Assembly (NCBI GenBank): GCA_029263455.1
Contig: JAJCXM010000022.1
Location: 124,001 to 188,000, forward strand
Direction of reading: 5' to 3'
From: Holophagae bacterium
GTDB lineage: Bacteria; Acidobacteriota; Holophagae; Acanthopleuribacterales; Acanthopleuribacteraceae
Length of the DNA: 64,000 nt
Made by a program: the position numbers and the translations under genes. The notes beneath the pieces are model-generated. The model was given only the letters and a program-made list of their open reading frames with translations. It ran no database searches and was not told the DNA's origin. This document shows positions 57,505 to 64,000 of this stretch, piece by piece. Numbering within the stretch: the stretch's first letter is position 1; every line of letters starts with the position of its first letter.

Positions 57505-58905
57505 TTAGCTAAGCTCGGCTTCGTCCGATATGAGTAACATAATGTCTAAATAATCTGTCTCGGCATACTGGTCGCCTGTCTCGGCCATCTGGAATAGACG
57601 ATATAGCGTCCAAGAAGAGTCGCGTTTCAAGAACGTCTCAACCAGAATGAGCAATTCGCGAATTGCCACAAACCACGCTGGTTCACTGGCTGTGTAATCT
57701 TCATGCTTGATGGCCAACCGGTCTGGATAGATGGTGCCGTCGTAATTTGAGATTCGAAAGCAAAATTCAGGGTTAGAAATCCTTTGTTGCCTGCCTGCGG
57801 TCTCCAAATAATACTTGTACAGGCCAGGTAACTGCCGCAGGATCGAAATCGAGTCGTTTTGGCTCAGGGAGGCGTCCGAATGATGTTGAGCATGAAATGC
57901 TGGGCTGCTTTCAAAGCGTGCCGCAAGCCACTTCCTGACAAAATGAGATGTCACTGCTAGAGATGACTCTGCGAGCGTTGTCAGGTAGCCCAACTTAAGT
58001 AATCGACTTATGTAGTTGCGTTCTTGCGCCGTTTGAAAGTGCTCTAGACTTGACTTACCGCAAAATACGTCTTTCATAATATTCTTTTCGATGTCATTCA
58101 ATAAGTCAAAATTGACCTCAATGACTTGGACCAGTGACGGGTTCGTTTCCATCTCTTGGCAGACCATTTCAATATCCGGGTTCTCAAAGACATGTTTAGC
58201 TACCAGTTGAGTTTCAAATGGGTTTCCCTCTGTGAGAGTGAATATCTCCTCGGCAACACTATGCAACTCTAAGCCAGATGAAAGTAAGTCCAATGTCTCT
58301 CGGTGTTCGAGGTTGCCAATGAAGCGGGACTCAAAACCATGTAGGAATGGTGACGTGTCTAACGAGGCTACTTGATGGAGCTGTTCGAGTCTTGTCGTGG
58401 AACACAGAATCGTCCTGAGACCATTCGTATGTTGCATGATTTTCCGCATCTTGCTTAGGTAATCAGCATCCTGTCGGCCGATATTGATGAATTCTTCAGC
58501 TTCGTCAATCAACAAAATCAGATTGTCATATTTTCTTGTGATTATTCGGGCAAGTTGCTTGAGTGCTTGGTGACAAGCCATTTGGGCATTAAGCTGGAGG
58601 TCGATAGTGTTCCACTGCAAAGGGAACATGTCACGACTGTCTTCAATAGCGTCAAAAAAACTGTCCGCCAAACCGTGCGTGTCGTAGCTGCCTTGAACAT
58701 CCCAAAAGAGCGCAAAACTTGAGCCTTTGGCCTGAACTTGTTGTTCTAGTTGTCGCAATAGAGATGTTTTACCTACGCGCCGTTTTCCGATTACCCAGTG
58801 GCATGTTTCATGCGACTCAATCAAATCGTCAATGAGAGCGACACGTCCGTAGAAATGAGGGCTGGTGACCCAGCGGCCAGCAATGAATGGGTTGCGTTGA
58901 TCCAC
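57505..58905 (-). CDS. NPxIAG-type NTPase, cytoplasmic (second of pair)
   Basis: The 466-residue protein opens with NPFIAGRWVTSPHFYGR (5-21), Walker A GKRRVGKTSL (40-49) and Walker B LILLIDEAEE (129-138), as in AAA_16/STAND-like ATPases. The C-terminal part (about 270-466) is helical, with a possible winged helix (about 290-335), and there is no signal or membrane helix. The lead-in motif and ATPase resemble the 710-residue neighbour, so the two probably share ancestry. The gene starts 11 bp after that neighbour. Confidence 0.72.
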   Translation of the reverse strand: MDQRNPFIAGRWVTSPHFYGRVALIDDLIESHETCHWVIGKRRVGKTSLLRQLEQQVQAKGSSFALFWDVQGSYDTHGLADSFFDAIEDSRDMFPLQWNTIDLQLNAQMACHQALKQLARIITRKYDNLILLIDEAEEFINIGRQDADYLSKMRKIMQHTNGLRTILCSTTRLEQLHQVASLDTSPFLHGFESRFIGNLEHRETLDLLSSGLELHSVAEEIFTLTEGNPFETQLVAKHVFENPDIEMVCQEMETNPSLVQVIEVNFDLLNDIEKNIMKDVFCGKSSLEHFQTAQERNYISRLLKLGYLTTLAESSLAVTSHFVRKWLAARFESSPAFHAQHHSDASLSQNDSISILRQLPGLYKYYLETAGRQQRISNPEFCFRISNYDGTIYPDRLAIKHEDYTASEPAWFVAIRELLILVETFLKRDSSWTLYRLFQMAETGDQYAETDYLDIMLLISDEAELS

Positions 58906-58916
58906 GAATTTTGCCC

Positions 58917-61049
58917 TTAAATAAGTTCGGGGTTGAGATCATCAACCGCTTGTTGGAAATCGCGCTGTATTTCCTGAAATACGTAACGAACGTCTTCCAG
59001 CGTTATTTTACGCCGGTTCTCATTGAGAATGTGAGCGACGAGATTGACACAAATCTTTTGAATCAAATATGGCTTGCCATCAGTTAGCAACAATATTTGA
59101 TCCACCGCTTCTTTGGTGAATGAGTAGACACCTTTTACTGGCTCGGTGATTAATGTTTTGGCCTGAATGTCGCTGAAGGCTTTCAATTCTATCTGCTCGA
59201 AAAAGTTATACCAAGGGCTTCCTTCACTTTTCCAGCGTTTCGAAATGTGTATGCCGGCCATGACAGCGACGATATGTCGTGCAAATCCCTTCATGAAAAC
59301 GGATCTCAATTGTTGGTTGGTCCGTTCACTAAAACTATTCATGACGTCCACTTCGTCCAACAAAAGCACAAGCTTAGGATTCTTCTCGCAAGCCTCTTTC
59401 AGCAATTGAATTGATTTACGCAAGCGGTGCACAAACACGCGCGCATCGATTGGGCCATCATAGTCTTCGGTTTCCAGACCTCTGGCCTGAAGCGTGCCGG
59501 AAATTTCGTGGTCTAGGAATGCGAAAAAATCGATCTCTGACACACCCTGTAGGTCAATCAGCACGGGTATAAACTCATATTCATTGTCGTCAACATCAGG
59601 CAGGACCGCATGTAAACGATGCAAAAAAGACGTCTTACCTATGCGCCGCTCACCACAGATCATTAAGGAGTTGTTGTGTAAAGTGTTGAGGATCTGCCTC
59701 AGTAAGGACCTTCGACCAAAAAACATACTGTCACTGAGGACCGGGGCACCTGCAATATAGGGATTAAATCGTTCACGAAAGGCAATTCTTTGGCGTCTCT
59801 GCAAGAGAATGAAGGCAAAGAGGAGAATAAAACACAAGCCGACGATGGCGATTCGTAGGCCGACCATTAAGGTGTTGTCGTCAGGGTGACTAATATTTGT
59901 TCGATAGGACTTTGTATGGCTCTGGCTCAAATAGTCTGTAATGACCAAATCGAATTGATTGAGCCCCTCTTGGATGGGAATATCCGTTTGTGTTAATGCT
60001 GGAATCTTGAAGGTACGACGCCCCCTGATGTCCCATTCCTTGACTATCTTTTGATTCACACTGAGCTCGGCCTGTAACAGGCTGACATTGCTTGTGATAG
60101 CTGCGCTAAATTCAAATAGATCACCCACTTGATTGCTGATCCATTCAATTGACACACTTGGGGCGATGCGTGTCGTCAGGCGTTTGGCCTGTTCCGTTTG
60201 AAGTTGCAGGTCACCAATGCGTTTATCCAGATTCTCCCGTTCCTGATTTTGGTCCTGCACTCTCGCTAGCAAACTGGCATTATCGTCCTGCAATTCGTGT
60301 AGGCGTGTTTCGAGGAATTCGATTTGTTCTTGGCTGTCGTTTTGTCCCAAAGAGGATTCGTATCGCTGGATAAAAGCTCTAGCCTCGTCATTAGCTAATG
60401 GCAACATACGGTCGACGAGTTGGTAAAAGAAGTAAGCTGACTCTAAATCACCTTGGATTTCGGATGTTCGTGCCTTGGCGAGTGTATCGCCAACATCTTG
60501 CTCTATCCTTTTCTGTATGCTGGTTAAGGCTGAGTTCGTTCGTATGGCTTCCTCTGCAAAAGCGCTTAATGCCTCCAATGACTCATCATCAGGATAATCA
60601 CTCTGTAAATTTCGAATTACCTGTAAGGCACCACTATAGTTGCCGACGCTGATGAGTTCCGTGACACCGGTAATATCCGGACTGGACGCTACCGATGTGG
60701 GAGGTTCGTTACGTCCGAGATAGCCTTCATAAAGGGTGAGTTTTGAACGGACCATGTCATCTCTGTCTTCGCCATAGCGTTTAGCTTGCTCTAAATAGGC
60801 GCGTGCCTTGTCTTCATGTCCAAGAATTAGATGCGCATAGGTCAAATGATGGTAGGGGTAATACTTAATAAGTTGGACACCGTAGGTCTTTTTATTGGCA
60901 CTGCTCTCTGGGTCTAGCTTGATCGCTAGTTCAAGGGCTGCAATCGCGTCTTCGTAGTCCTCTTGTTGAAAGGCACGCATCCCCTCGTCGTAATACTCAT
61001 AAAATCTCTGATTCTGAAGAACGAAACATAGGCTAAGGATAATGATCAT
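58917..61049 (-). CDS. TPR / coiled-coil / membrane / NTPase protein (first of pair)
   Basis: The 710-residue protein begins with a hydrophobic segment (1-11, a possible signal or anchor), TPR-like repeats (20-220), a coiled coil (240-290), a beta domain (295-385) and a single membrane helix (394-416). A cytoplasmic NTPase follows: NPYIAGAPVLSDSMFFGR (429-446), Walker A GERRIGKTS (466-474), Walker B VLLLDEVDVM (561-570) and a C-terminal helical domain. It thus has probable periplasmic and cytoplasmic parts. It sits 7 bp downstream of the outer-membrane protein gene. Confidence 0.78.
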   Translation of the reverse strand: MIIILSLCFVLQNQRFYEYYDEGMRAFQQEDYEDAIAALELAIKLDPESSANKKTYGVQLIKYYPYHHLTYAHLILGHEDKARAYLEQAKRYGEDRDDMVRSKLTLYEGYLGRNEPPTSVASSPDITGVTELISVGNYSGALQVIRNLQSDYPDDESLEALSAFAEEAIRTNSALTSIQKRIEQDVGDTLAKARTSEIQGDLESAYFFYQLVDRMLPLANDEARAFIQRYESSLGQNDSQEQIEFLETRLHELQDDNASLLARVQDQNQERENLDKRIGDLQLQTEQAKRLTTRIAPSVSIEWISNQVGDLFEFSAAITSNVSLLQAELSVNQKIVKEWDIRGRRTFKIPALTQTDIPIQEGLNQFDLVITDYLSQSHTKSYRTNISHPDDNTLMVGLRIAIVGLCFILLFAFILLQRRQRIAFRERFNPYIAGAPVLSDSMFFGRRSLLRQILNTLHNNSLMICGERRIGKTSFLHRLHAVLPDVDDNEYEFIPVLIDLQGVSEIDFFAFLDHEISGTLQARGLETEDYDGPIDARVFVHRLRKSIQLLKEACEKNPKLVLLLDEVDVMNSFSERTNQQLRSVFMKGFARHIVAVMAGIHISKRWKSEGSPWYNFFEQIELKAFSDIQAKTLITEPVKGVYSFTKEAVDQILLLTDGKPYLIQKICVNLVAHILNENRRKITLEDVRYVFQEIQRDFQQAVDDLNPELI

Positions 61050-61056
61050 GTGTGCC

Positions 61057-62340
61057 TCAAAACCTATACAGAAAGGACGTAACGAGCCAATCGAAACGAT
61101 CAGACCTCACCACGGCCAGGTCAAGTTGAACCTTGTTCTTCCAGACAAATCCAAGGCCAGCTGTGTAACCCACGTTGTCGTCGCCGCGGCCAAAATTGAA
61201 AATAAAGTCCTGAATTTCGCCGACCTCGTCATCGGTTGGGCCTATGAAACGCGTTTTATGATCCGGGTCAAGGAACATACCGCTACGTAGGGCAACAATG
61301 CCGCTTTCCACTGGAATAAGGTACTCAAGTCCCAGATGAACTTCAAATACGTCGGGGCTGCGGTAGTCGTCGGGATTGAAACGCTCCGCCGAAATAATCG
61401 TAAAGTCCTGGCCTGTCAACTGCGAATAGCGAATCCAATCAAAATCGAGCAGTATAGTCATCAAATCGTTGGGCTGTAATGAGAAACCCAAATTCACGGA
61501 ATCGGGGACCTTGAATGTGATGCCAAAGCGCTGGCCATCGGGAAATTCATCAGGAGGATGTTGCGGATTGTTGACACGTTCATCAAATCGAAAAGCGGGC
61601 TGTCGTTTATAGACAAGACCGACCTTTGACTTGTCGGTCACTTCCCAAAGGCTTCCAAACGCAAGCGTTACTTTTTGACTTTGTGCCAATGCCTCGCTTT
61701 GTACGATTTCGTTGAGTGAAAAGAAGTCGCTTGAGAGACGGGTTAGATAATCATAGTCCACGGAAAGTCTGGACAATCCGACCGCGCCGCCCAAGGACAA
61801 TCGGCCCCAGCGCTTCGAGAAACTCAGCCCGTATGTGTCAATCGACATCGACACATCGTGTTGATTAATATAGTTAAATTCATAACCGCGGGTACGACTA
61901 ACCCAACGAGTCTGCTCTTCATCCTTGGTCGAACGTTGATAGTCTAAATGATTTACATAAAAAACTGACCATGCCATGTCGAACATGCCAAAGGACAAGG
62001 AAGCAAATGCTAGTTTATCGGAATCGATGCGAGTAGATTGAGCCGCGCCACTAATTAAATCGAAGGAATCGTTTTGCTGCAAGAAATCAAATTGCGTGCT
62101 ACTTGATCGATATTCAAGTGAAAATTCGGGGGCAGCAAGTACGGTCAAACCGGCAGGATTGTTGTAGGCGGCAGTTGCTTCATCGGCGAGACCCACGAAA
62201 GCGCGGCCCATCGCATTCGCCCTCGCCCCAGGCGTAGCAAAATCAAACTGAAATTCGCGGTAAATGGTTTCATCGGTCTGCGCCATTCCAAGAATTGCAC
62301 AGCTACAAACAAAACAAACCCGCCACCCACACCTAAGCAT
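61057..62340 (-). CDS. FadL/PorV-like outer-membrane beta-barrel protein
   Basis: The 427-residue protein has a signal peptide (cleavage likely after about residue 20, GMAQ), then the segment PGARANAMGRAFVGLADEATAAYNNPAGL, typical of FadL/OmpP1-type and PorV/PorQ-like barrels. It is rich in alternating strands and ends in an aromatic residue (SFLYRF), a usual BAM recognition signal. Cargo is unknown. It is the first gene of the cassette. No Shine-Dalgarno sequence is seen before the ATG. Confidence 0.85.
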   Translation of the reverse strand: MLRCGWRVCFVCSCAILGMAQTDETIYREFQFDFATPGARANAMGRAFVGLADEATAAYNNPAGLTVLAAPEFSLEYRSSSTQFDFLQQNDSFDLISGAAQSTRIDSDKLAFASLSFGMFDMAWSVFYVNHLDYQRSTKDEEQTRWVSRTRGYEFNYINQHDVSMSIDTYGLSFSKRWGRLSLGGAVGLSRLSVDYDYLTRLSSDFFSLNEIVQSEALAQSQKVTLAFGSLWEVTDKSKVGLVYKRQPAFRFDERVNNPQHPPDEFPDGQRFGITFKVPDSVNLGFSLQPNDLMTILLDFDWIRYSQLTGQDFTIISAERFNPDDYRSPDVFEVHLGLEYLIPVESGIVALRSGMFLDPDHKTRFIGPTDDEVGEIQDFIFNFGRGDDNVGYTAGLGFVWKNKVQLDLAVVRSDRFDWLVTSFLYRF

Positions 62341-62345
62341 AGGCG

Positions 62346-62373
62346 ATCATAGCACCGCGCCCATGTTTGGCAA
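62346..62373 (-). promoter_or_regulatory. Promoter giving a near-leaderless transcript for the barrel gene
   Basis: On the minus strand TTGCCA (62373-62368), 16-bp spacer, TATGAT (62351-62346), followed by five bases and the ATG. The predicted +1 is at or next to the start codon. Confidence 0.6.
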
Positions 62374-62479
62374 GATGTTTCTGTCTCTTCATTAAAGACA
62401 GAGACGTGGCGATCTAACTCCAGCCAGTGTTCAAGGTTTTACCCCTTTATTTTCAACGTTTTACGCAATCAACAATCTG

Positions 62480-62495
62480 TGGCATGGATCTCGCA
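62480..62495 (+). promoter_or_regulatory. Sigma54-like promoter candidate for the abundant secreted protein
   Basis: TGGCATG, GATC, TCGCA: GG (62481-62482) and GC (62493-62494) are 10 bp apart and agree with the sigma54 pattern apart from two transitions. Confidence 0.4.
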
Positions 62496-62655
62496 TTCTC
62501 GTTCTGCATCTTGTCCCTTGTCGAGGGACGAACTACATCAATCTATCGATCGACTCAAGGTAGGCGAATGTTAATCCCAAAAATGCATAACCCAATAGTC
62601 AATTCGAATGGTTTGGTCAATCGAACGATCACTCTGTTTATGGAGGTAACCTTTA

Positions 62656-64000
62656 ATGTTTAAGAAAGCAATGTCCCTGCTGGCGCTAACAGCATTGGGC
62701 AGCATGGTGTTTGCCAACGTAGATTTACGTACAAACATCAGAGACATCTATTATCGCGGGACATGTGAAGAGGCTGGTGCTGTCACCATGTCTGTCAACG
62801 GTAACGACTTCTTTGAAGCGTCAACCGACACACCCGTATTCATCCGAATCCGTCTTGATAAAGGCGGCAAATTGTGTGACACCTTGGTAGACTTCCAGGG
62901 TATCGATAGCTTCGGTGGAAGCCACACAAACGTACCCGTCTATCTGGCAATGCGTATTGAATCTTCATCTGGTGCCTTAATTAATGCACCTTCTGAAACC
63001 GTTTCAATCGTACGTTGGAAAGGTGGCGAAAGTGAGCTTTGGATTCGCGTTCAGTCGCCATCCTCTACTTGGGTTAACCAAGGTGGATTCATCTTCGCTC
63101 CTGACACAAGCCGTCGTGTTGCTTGGACCTTTGGTCTGACTGCACGTAGTTCATGGAATCGTAACTTCCCTGACTTCCCGGCATTCTCTAACTTGCCAGC
63201 CAATACGAATGACGTTCCTGCCATTCTTGCTGCTGCGGACACTCGTGGTTGGGCTGTATCAACTCTATTTTGTGTAGACGTTTCCAGCTCTATCTTGACT
63301 CCATGGCCAGCACTGAACTCGGAACTCGAGTTTGATACGATTTCATTTGACTCAGCTACCACACCCCCGTGGTTGGCAGAGTTTGCTTCGCAAATCAACC
63401 TGGGTAACCAGACTTCAGCTAACTTCTCGGGTGACGATACGATCGCTCGTGGAATCGATATCAACTGTTCTTTAACTGTTGATAAAGGTGGTCCTGCTGG
63501 TGCTGATCTTTGTTTGCAACCTGGTGGTCAGAACCTTCAAGCTGAAGGTCTCGTTTGCATGACCGATGGTATCGGTATCAACCTCTTCTGTGATTATGGC
63601 TGGAACCGTGGTTCTCAGATCCATGTGGAAACGCCAGTAGGCGCTCCTTATGGCTTCCAAGTAATCACTGCTGGTGGTAATCCTATCGTTGTTGGTCTTC
63701 AGTTCGGTGAAGAATTGTGGGCAGTTAATGCAACTGCAACCGCTAATGGCGGTGGCGGATTTAACTTCTACACCTTCGCTTCTGACACCTTCTCTGCAGG
63801 TGGCAACATCCTGTCTAGCTACATCATCATGTACTTCCTTGGTCCTGATGTTCCTCCAAATTTCATCAATTTGGACATCACGGCTACCGTATGTGCTTGG
63901 TACACAATTGATCCACAGAGCGTTGAACTGCAAGCTGCAGTTTATGCAACAAACCGTGGTTCATTTGTAGACGATGCTGACCTTAACTTCCAAGGTTTGA
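62656..64000 (+). CDS. Highly expressed secreted protein, partial (runs off right edge)
   Basis: The frame begins at ATG 62656 with a strong GGAGGTAAC six bases upstream and stays open for 448 codons to the right edge. It has a signal peptide (ALTALGSMVFA) and a strand-rich mature chain with eight scattered cysteines and many aromatic residues. Codon choice is strongly biased (CGT for Arg, GGT for Gly, AAC, TTC, ATC and CTG), unlike most neighbours, which suggests high expression. I do not recognise a family. Confidence 0.72.
   Translation, partial: MFKKAMSLLALTALGSMVFANVDLRTNIRDIYYRGTCEEAGAVTMSVNGNDFFEASTDTPVFIRIRLDKGGKLCDTLVDFQGIDSFGGSHTNVPVYLAMRIESSSGALINAPSETVSIVRWKGGESELWIRVQSPSSTWVNQGGFIFAPDTSRRVAWTFGLTARSSWNRNFPDFPAFSNLPANTNDVPAILAAADTRGWAVSTLFCVDVSSSILTPWPALNSELEFDTISFDSATTPPWLAEFASQINLGNQTSANFSGDDTIARGIDINCSLTVDKGGPAGADLCLQPGGQNLQAEGLVCMTDGIGINLFCDYGWNRGSQIHVETPVGAPYGFQVITAGGNPIVVGLQFGEELWAVNATATANGGGGFNFYTFASDTFSAGGNILSSYIIMYFLGPDVPPNFINLDITATVCAWYTIDPQSVELQAAVYATNRGSFVDDADLNFQGL

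Follow-up and report, generated by a model that had tools for sequence, protein, structure and literature searches.

The window, by which we mean the whole 64,000-nucleotide stretch of DNA that was analysed, carries a cassette of three minus-strand genes, followed by a divergent intergenic region that is presumed, from the layout of the open reading frames, to hold the cassette promoter:

57505-58905, minus strand: cytosolic STAND-type NTPase with a winged helix (P0001; GTG start, 466 aa)
58917-61049, minus strand: TPR–coiled coil–beta domain–TM helix–NTPase protein (P0002; 710 aa)
61057-62340, minus strand: FadL-superfamily (FadL/PorV-like) outer-membrane beta-barrel (P0003; 427 aa, signal sequence)
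62341-62655, no strand: divergent intergenic region, presumed cassette promoter

The called reading frames are separated by 11 bp (P0001/P0002) and 7 bp (P0002/P0003). The coordinates, gaps, motifs and topology that the initial annotation gave for these genes were all borne out.

The three proteins of the cassette

P0003 matches the Pfam family Toluene_X (PF03349) with 50.9 bits, above the gathering score of 29.7 (E = 1.1e-13), which confirms the FadL-like identity proposed for it. The NCBIfam model PorV_fam (NF033709) was also hit (E = 5.6e-8), at 32.7 bits against a cut-off of 90, a score that does not place the protein within PorV/PorQ. An NNPAG motif lies near the N-terminus, and NPAG is found in 26 of the 27 family barrels. 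P0003 therefore stands in the same superfamily as FadL/TodX and PorV, but its subfamily is divergent and linked to NTPases, and the same genome also has a canonical FadL at another place (G000, contig C14; E = 2.5e-89). On contig C8 of that genome we also observed a tandem pair of related FadL-superfamily barrels with no NTPases nearby (L064:6110-8784); barrels related to this pair occupy matching places in the other six genomes of the window's family.

Pfam, hydropathy and AlphaFold2 agree on the architecture that had been predicted for the middle protein, in which TPR, coiled-coil and beta domains are joined by one helix to an NTPase. Pfam matches in P0002 cover the TPR region and an ATPase_2/AAA_22 NTPase, and hydropathy analysis shows one strong hydrophobic helix at residues ~398-416, immediately N-terminal to the NTPase. 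The AlphaFold2 model consists of TPR helices, a long coiled coil (221-288), a beta domain (299-386), the TM helix and the NTPase; its pLDDT is 82.9, and its low pTM (0.50) means that the relative placement of the domains is not to be trusted. The predicted periplasmic part spans residues ~15-390 and the Orc/STAND-like NTPase residues 425-700. P0002 itself has a short N-terminal signal sequence, but orthologues carry canonical signal peptides (for example at L034, L053 and L055), and from these sequences we conclude that the TPR part of P0002 is most likely periplasmic. The structure search, which informs on the NTPase and not on the periplasmic part, returned Orc/Cdc6-like folds with Z ~18-19. 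Among the features that define STAND NTPases, Walker A (G466-T473), Walker B (D565-E566) and the GxP proline (P660) are invariant; as to the winged helix, the chain stops shortly after the lid, and the structures it resembles most, Orc/Cdc6 AAA+ cores, match it as far as the lid.

P0001 matches AAA_22/ATPase_2 in Pfam, and hydropathy analysis found no strong hydrophobic TM helix in it. Its model (pLDDT 90.9) was compared with known structures over residues up to ~396, and it most resembles the archaeal Walker-type ATPases 2qen (Z 23.4, rmsd 4.7, 312 aligned) and 2fna (Z 20.8, rmsd 5.5, 305 aligned). The NTPases of NLR proteins and CED-4 followed with Z of 15-17, a similarity that includes the winged helix. 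P0001 has the Walker A and B motifs, the GxP proline and a winged helix after the lid, as expected of a STAND NTPase. Nearly all members keep the Walker motifs and the proline, and MarR-like wHTH matches are found at the position of the P0001 winged helix in relatives.

Both NTPases of the window indeed carry the NPxIAG then F(F/Y)GR motif reported ahead of Walker A: NPFIAG...FYGR precedes GKRRVGKT in P0001, and NPYIAG...FFGR precedes GERRIGKT in P0002. In the transmembrane NTPase the motif holds family-wide, with N429, P430, A433, G434, F443, G445 and R446 invariant across 28 sequences. The cytosolic NTPase keeps the NPxIAG-type motif only in part; it is lost in paralogue B, where the sequence reads FxxNRWVRG..F.GR, and archaeal 2fna has DFFDRE at the equivalent site. 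We rejected the motif as proof that the two NTPases form a pair, because F-x-(G/D)-R is a general feature ahead of Walker A. The pairing rests instead on the conserved adjacency of the two genes.

Conservation and linkage of the cassette

Two paralogous cassettes are present in all seven genomes of the window's family, Acanthopleuribacteraceae (G000-G006), and the window holds copy A. This copy has ruvA, ruvB and a sigma-54 activator nearby in six of the seven genomes, and in all seven it lies between the gene of a secreted protein and two divergent genes. The copy A barrel is adjacent to the NTPase genes in four genomes, and an orthologous barrel lies elsewhere in G003, G005 and G006. In copy B all three genes are adjacent and in the same order in 7/7 genomes. 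In phylogenetic trees each gene falls into an A clade and a B clade that cover the same seven genomes, with the A and B barrels as sisters, from which we conclude that the whole cassette was duplicated. The distance matrices of the genes correlate (r 0.80-0.92), a figure for which shared descent accounts in part.

The flanking secreted proteins were considered separately. The one beside P0001 (56035-57504, 489 aa) is convergent with copy A in every family genome and has exactly one close copy in each. It was rejected as a fourth component, its matching domain occurring in ~18-31 places per genome; for the same reason, little weight attaches to the match (hhalign 97%) between its profile and the C-terminal half of the large secreted protein that adjoins copy B. 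On the other side, two large secreted proteins are encoded divergently from the cassette, the first at 62656-63999 (running past the window end) and the second at L036:12779-15214, which has a TGase_elicitor match (E = 9e-9). Both genes are kept beside copy A in 7/7 family genomes.

Acidobacteriota and Calditrichota were scanned with a profile of the transmembrane NTPase domain only; a full-length P0002 profile proved unsuitable, since it drew in unrelated TPR proteins from other Holophagae. The domain profile separated cleanly within Acidobacteriota, where matches all had E<1e-90 and nothing else appeared at E<=1e-40. It identified the NTPase in 12 of 396 sampled Acidobacteriota genomes (11 of 210 genera) and 4 of 40 Calditrichota, and found none in other Holophagae. 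At all 30 loci collected, the cytosolic NTPase gene is adjacent to that of the transmembrane NTPase. At 21 of the 24 assessable loci that are not of the volactin type described below, the cassette includes or adjoins a FadL-superfamily barrel, in five gene orders:

Barrel, transmembrane NTPase, cytosolic NTPase in a row: families f1, f8, f47 and Calditrichota
Transmembrane NTPase, cytosolic NTPase, barrel: family f26
Divergent barrel: family f8
Two flanking barrels: family f6
Barrel on the opposite strand: families f73 and f45 (in f45 between the two NTPase genes)

The cassette thus extends over seven Acidobacteriota families and Calditrichota, with differing orders, orientations and flanks; the two Calditrichota loci for which flanks were available (L065 and L067) have different neighbours around an intact three-gene unit. 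This adjacency in two phyla supports a real, conserved envelope-spanning cassette of outer-membrane barrel, TPR-TM-NTPase and cytosolic NTPase, and provides the conserved neighbourhood in other genomes on which the initial proposal depended.

Barrel linkage is far beyond chance, because a genome contains only ~1-8 Toluene_X matches at E<=1e-5, and the chance of finding one within a few kb is about half a percent per locus. The three genes might nevertheless be a co-inherited neighbourhood without joint function, as the unlinked copy A barrels of three family genomes would allow. We hold this to be very improbable, given the low chance expectation, the recurrence of the linkage in five arrangements and two phyla, and the retention of the unlinked barrels as orthologues. 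The barrel and the NTPases are not inseparable, however, and this counts in part against the initial proposal. Five volactin-type NTPase pairs lack the barrel, the copy A barrel is unlinked in 3/7 genomes and the related tandem barrels stand without NTPases, so that the partnership is usual and not obligatory.

Output domains in relatives

Outside the window's family, the cytosolic protein typically consists of the NTPase, a MarR-like winged helix and a Ser/Thr kinase, ~640-680 aa in all. Such proteins were found in families f8 (two copies), f47, f26 and f6 and in three Calditrichota. Their kinase domains match Pkinase with E of 1e-45 to 1e-54, and the catalytic Lys, HRD and DFG are present in all eight complete proteins. 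In families f73 and f45, the cytosolic NTPase has instead an N-terminal OmpR-type DNA-binding domain (Trans_reg_C). Fusions of this kind are encoded at L056:4237-6842, where two cytosolic NTPase genes lie in a row, and at L059:4047-5435.

In paralogue B, the C-terminus of the cytosolic NTPase is a kinase C-lobe without HRD and DFG (hhalign 98.2%, E = 3e-14). This pseudokinase relic is seen at L037:8328-9830 and at the other copy B loci (L039, L041, L043, L045, L047 and L049). Window P0001 has no Pkinase match in Pfam and lacks the catalytic Lys, HRD and DFG. A degenerate kinase at its C-terminus was considered and rejected, as profile comparison of this C-terminus with the kinases of relatives found nothing and only the winged helix matched; the last part of P0001 (~340-466, about 120 residues) is unrelated to the kinase that relatives carry there. 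Taking the kinase C-lobe of paralogue B together with the kinases of relatives, we conclude that a kinase was probably part of the cassette ancestral to those of the family and has since been lost.

A separate clade of five Acidobacteriota genomes (three of family f39, one of f86, and that of locus L034) has a bare cytosolic NTPase of ~345 aa and no barrel. In these genomes a volactin (PF25216) and a peptidoglycan amidase (Amidase_2) are encoded beside the NTPase pair; the loci are L034:5278-11463, L052, L054, L058 and L060. Volactin is an actin homologue first described in haloarchaea. In Haloferax it is a dynamic protein that acts in shape transition (PMC10869688). Relatives of this protein adjoin the same NTPase pair here, but they are bacterial and accompanied by an amidase and NTPases, and no barrel-type genome, that of the window included, has one that scores above cut-off.

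These neighbours raise the possibility of an envelope-integrity or morphogenesis scaffold, in which the NTPase pair would anchor periplasmic TPR scaffolds and couple envelope state to assembly of the wall and cytoskeleton. The association of amidase, volactin and both NTPases in five genomes and the role of the Haloferax protein in cell shape are consistent with it. We nevertheless regard such a scaffold as unlikely for the cassette, since the volactin branch is a separate clade without a barrel, the barrel-type genomes are without volactin, and the fused kinase and wHTH outputs are left unexplained.

A candidate signalling route across the envelope

On balance, our results lean towards the cassette being an envelope-spanning signal relay, made up of the barrel, a transmembrane NTPase with a periplasmic TPR/beta receptor, and a cytosolic STAND-type NTPase as output. 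In this relay, the outer-membrane barrel would sense or admit a ligand, probably hydrophobic, or report the state of the outer membrane, and would signal by contact to P0002 at its periplasmic TPR/coiled-coil/beta part. This protein would pass the signal inwards through its single TM helix to its own cytoplasmic NTPase, which may switch the partner NTPase P0001 by ATP-dependent association, P0001 carrying the output. This output would be a fused Ser/Thr kinase ancestrally and in most relatives, and an OmpR-type DNA-binding domain in some. In the window's family, where the kinase is lost, P0001 probably uses the replacement domain at its C-terminus to act on partners that the cassette does not encode.

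The exchange of outputs on a fixed sensor-NTPase core argues for signalling rather than transport or defence, and the recurrent outer-membrane barrel makes input from the outer membrane the simplest reading. Counting against the relay are the lack of a recognisable output domain in window P0001 and the unlinked copy A barrels. FadL-type barrels are usually regarded as passive channels or transporters, and the barrel might accordingly be something that the system regulates instead of its sensor.

The initial annotation had suggested an ATP-driven machine for transport, sensing or defence. Swapping of outputs (kinase, DNA-binding domain, volactin) and the STAND/Orc type of the NTPases favour signalling over the other two. 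In a transport or secretion machine, the NTPases would supply the energy for passing a hydrophobic substrate or a lipid through the barrel, and P0002 would bridge the periplasm. Hydrophobic compounds are what FadL-superfamily barrels normally conduct, and the composition of the cassette spans both membranes. We think such a machine unlikely, however: with its single TM helix the cassette lacks both an inner-membrane channel and an ABC-type domain, its NTPases are of Orc/STAND type, a kinase or DNA-binding domain is swapped on the same core, and NTPase pairs beside volactin have no barrel.

STAND NTPases with kinases also occur in conflict systems, so an antiphage or abortive-infection role was weighed. 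Kinase effectors have been described in such systems (PMC7159879), and PADLOC gave a weak match to PDC-S27 (E = 1.4e-6) confined to the NTPase region; its other matches to antiphage core proteins were likewise partial or weak, none being full-length. Against a defence role stand the synteny of copy A beside ruvAB, the vertical inheritance of both copies in 7/7 genomes, the envelope topology, the absence of a toxin or nuclease effector, and a plasmid search that gave no match. We consider defence very improbable.

Returning to the signal relay, we found no description of this composition in the open-access PMC literature, in keeping with the initial view that no such system had been described, and the combination has no named model in NCBIfam, Pfam or PADLOC. 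It is possible, though we would stop short of calling it probable, that the cassette represents a new class of trans-envelope signalling in at least two phyla. In such a system the signal would be received by a FadL-type barrel and transduced by a transmembrane Orc/STAND-like NTPase bearing a periplasmic TPR/beta sensor, and a cytosolic STAND NTPase-kinase would act as the switch. The NTPase core would be modular: a DNA-binding domain could take the place of the output, or an actin-like cytoskeleton and a wall amidase could be its partners. In the window's lineage, the kinase would have decayed and given way to a new output domain. If so, FadL-type barrels would be tied to signalling. The volactin branch connects this NTPase core with a wall amidase and a bacterial actin homologue.

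Since the components belong to known superfamilies, the cassette can be viewed as STAND-NTPase signalling extended across the envelope. The STAND class underlies NLR-type switches. P0001 resembles the archaeal MNS-type ATPases 2qen and 2fna and the NLR/CED-4 proteins in its NTPase, GxP lid proline and winged helix, but known STAND NTPases are mostly cytosolic single proteins, whereas the cassette pairs a cytosolic one with an NTPase that crosses the membrane and bears a periplasmic sensor part, next to an outer-membrane barrel. ExeA/GspA-type ATPases, which promote secretin assembly, likewise join an NTPase by one TM helix to a periplasmic part and are functionally tied to an outer-membrane pore; in them a cytoplasmic AAA_22 ATPase is N-terminal and a periplasmic peptidoglycan-binding domain C-terminal. 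P0002 differs in having the reverse order, with the periplasmic part N-terminal, a barrel that is not a secretin and a paired NTPase-kinase; it has a TPR region and beta domain and no peptidoglycan-binding Pfam match, which sets it outside that family.

Few routes for signals from the outer membrane to the cytoplasm are known in Gram-negative-type bacteria, and FecA-like cell-surface signalling is well studied. The cassette would add a surface-to-cytoplasm route assembled from unrelated parts and built on the NLR-type NTPase class. FecA-FecR-FecI consists of a TonB-dependent transducer, an anti-sigma factor and an ECF sigma factor (PMC9249621). Both systems co-encode an outer-membrane barrel, a single-pass inner-membrane protein with a periplasmic receptor part and a cytosolic output, and the flow from surface to cytoplasm in FecA-FecR-FecI is the one we infer for the cassette. 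No part homologous to FecA-FecR-FecI was found, and the Pfam matches of the three proteins include no sigma or anti-sigma family. The cassette has a FadL-type barrel in place of the TonB-dependent receptor, and two NTPases with a kinase or wHTH output in place of the anti-sigma/sigma pair.
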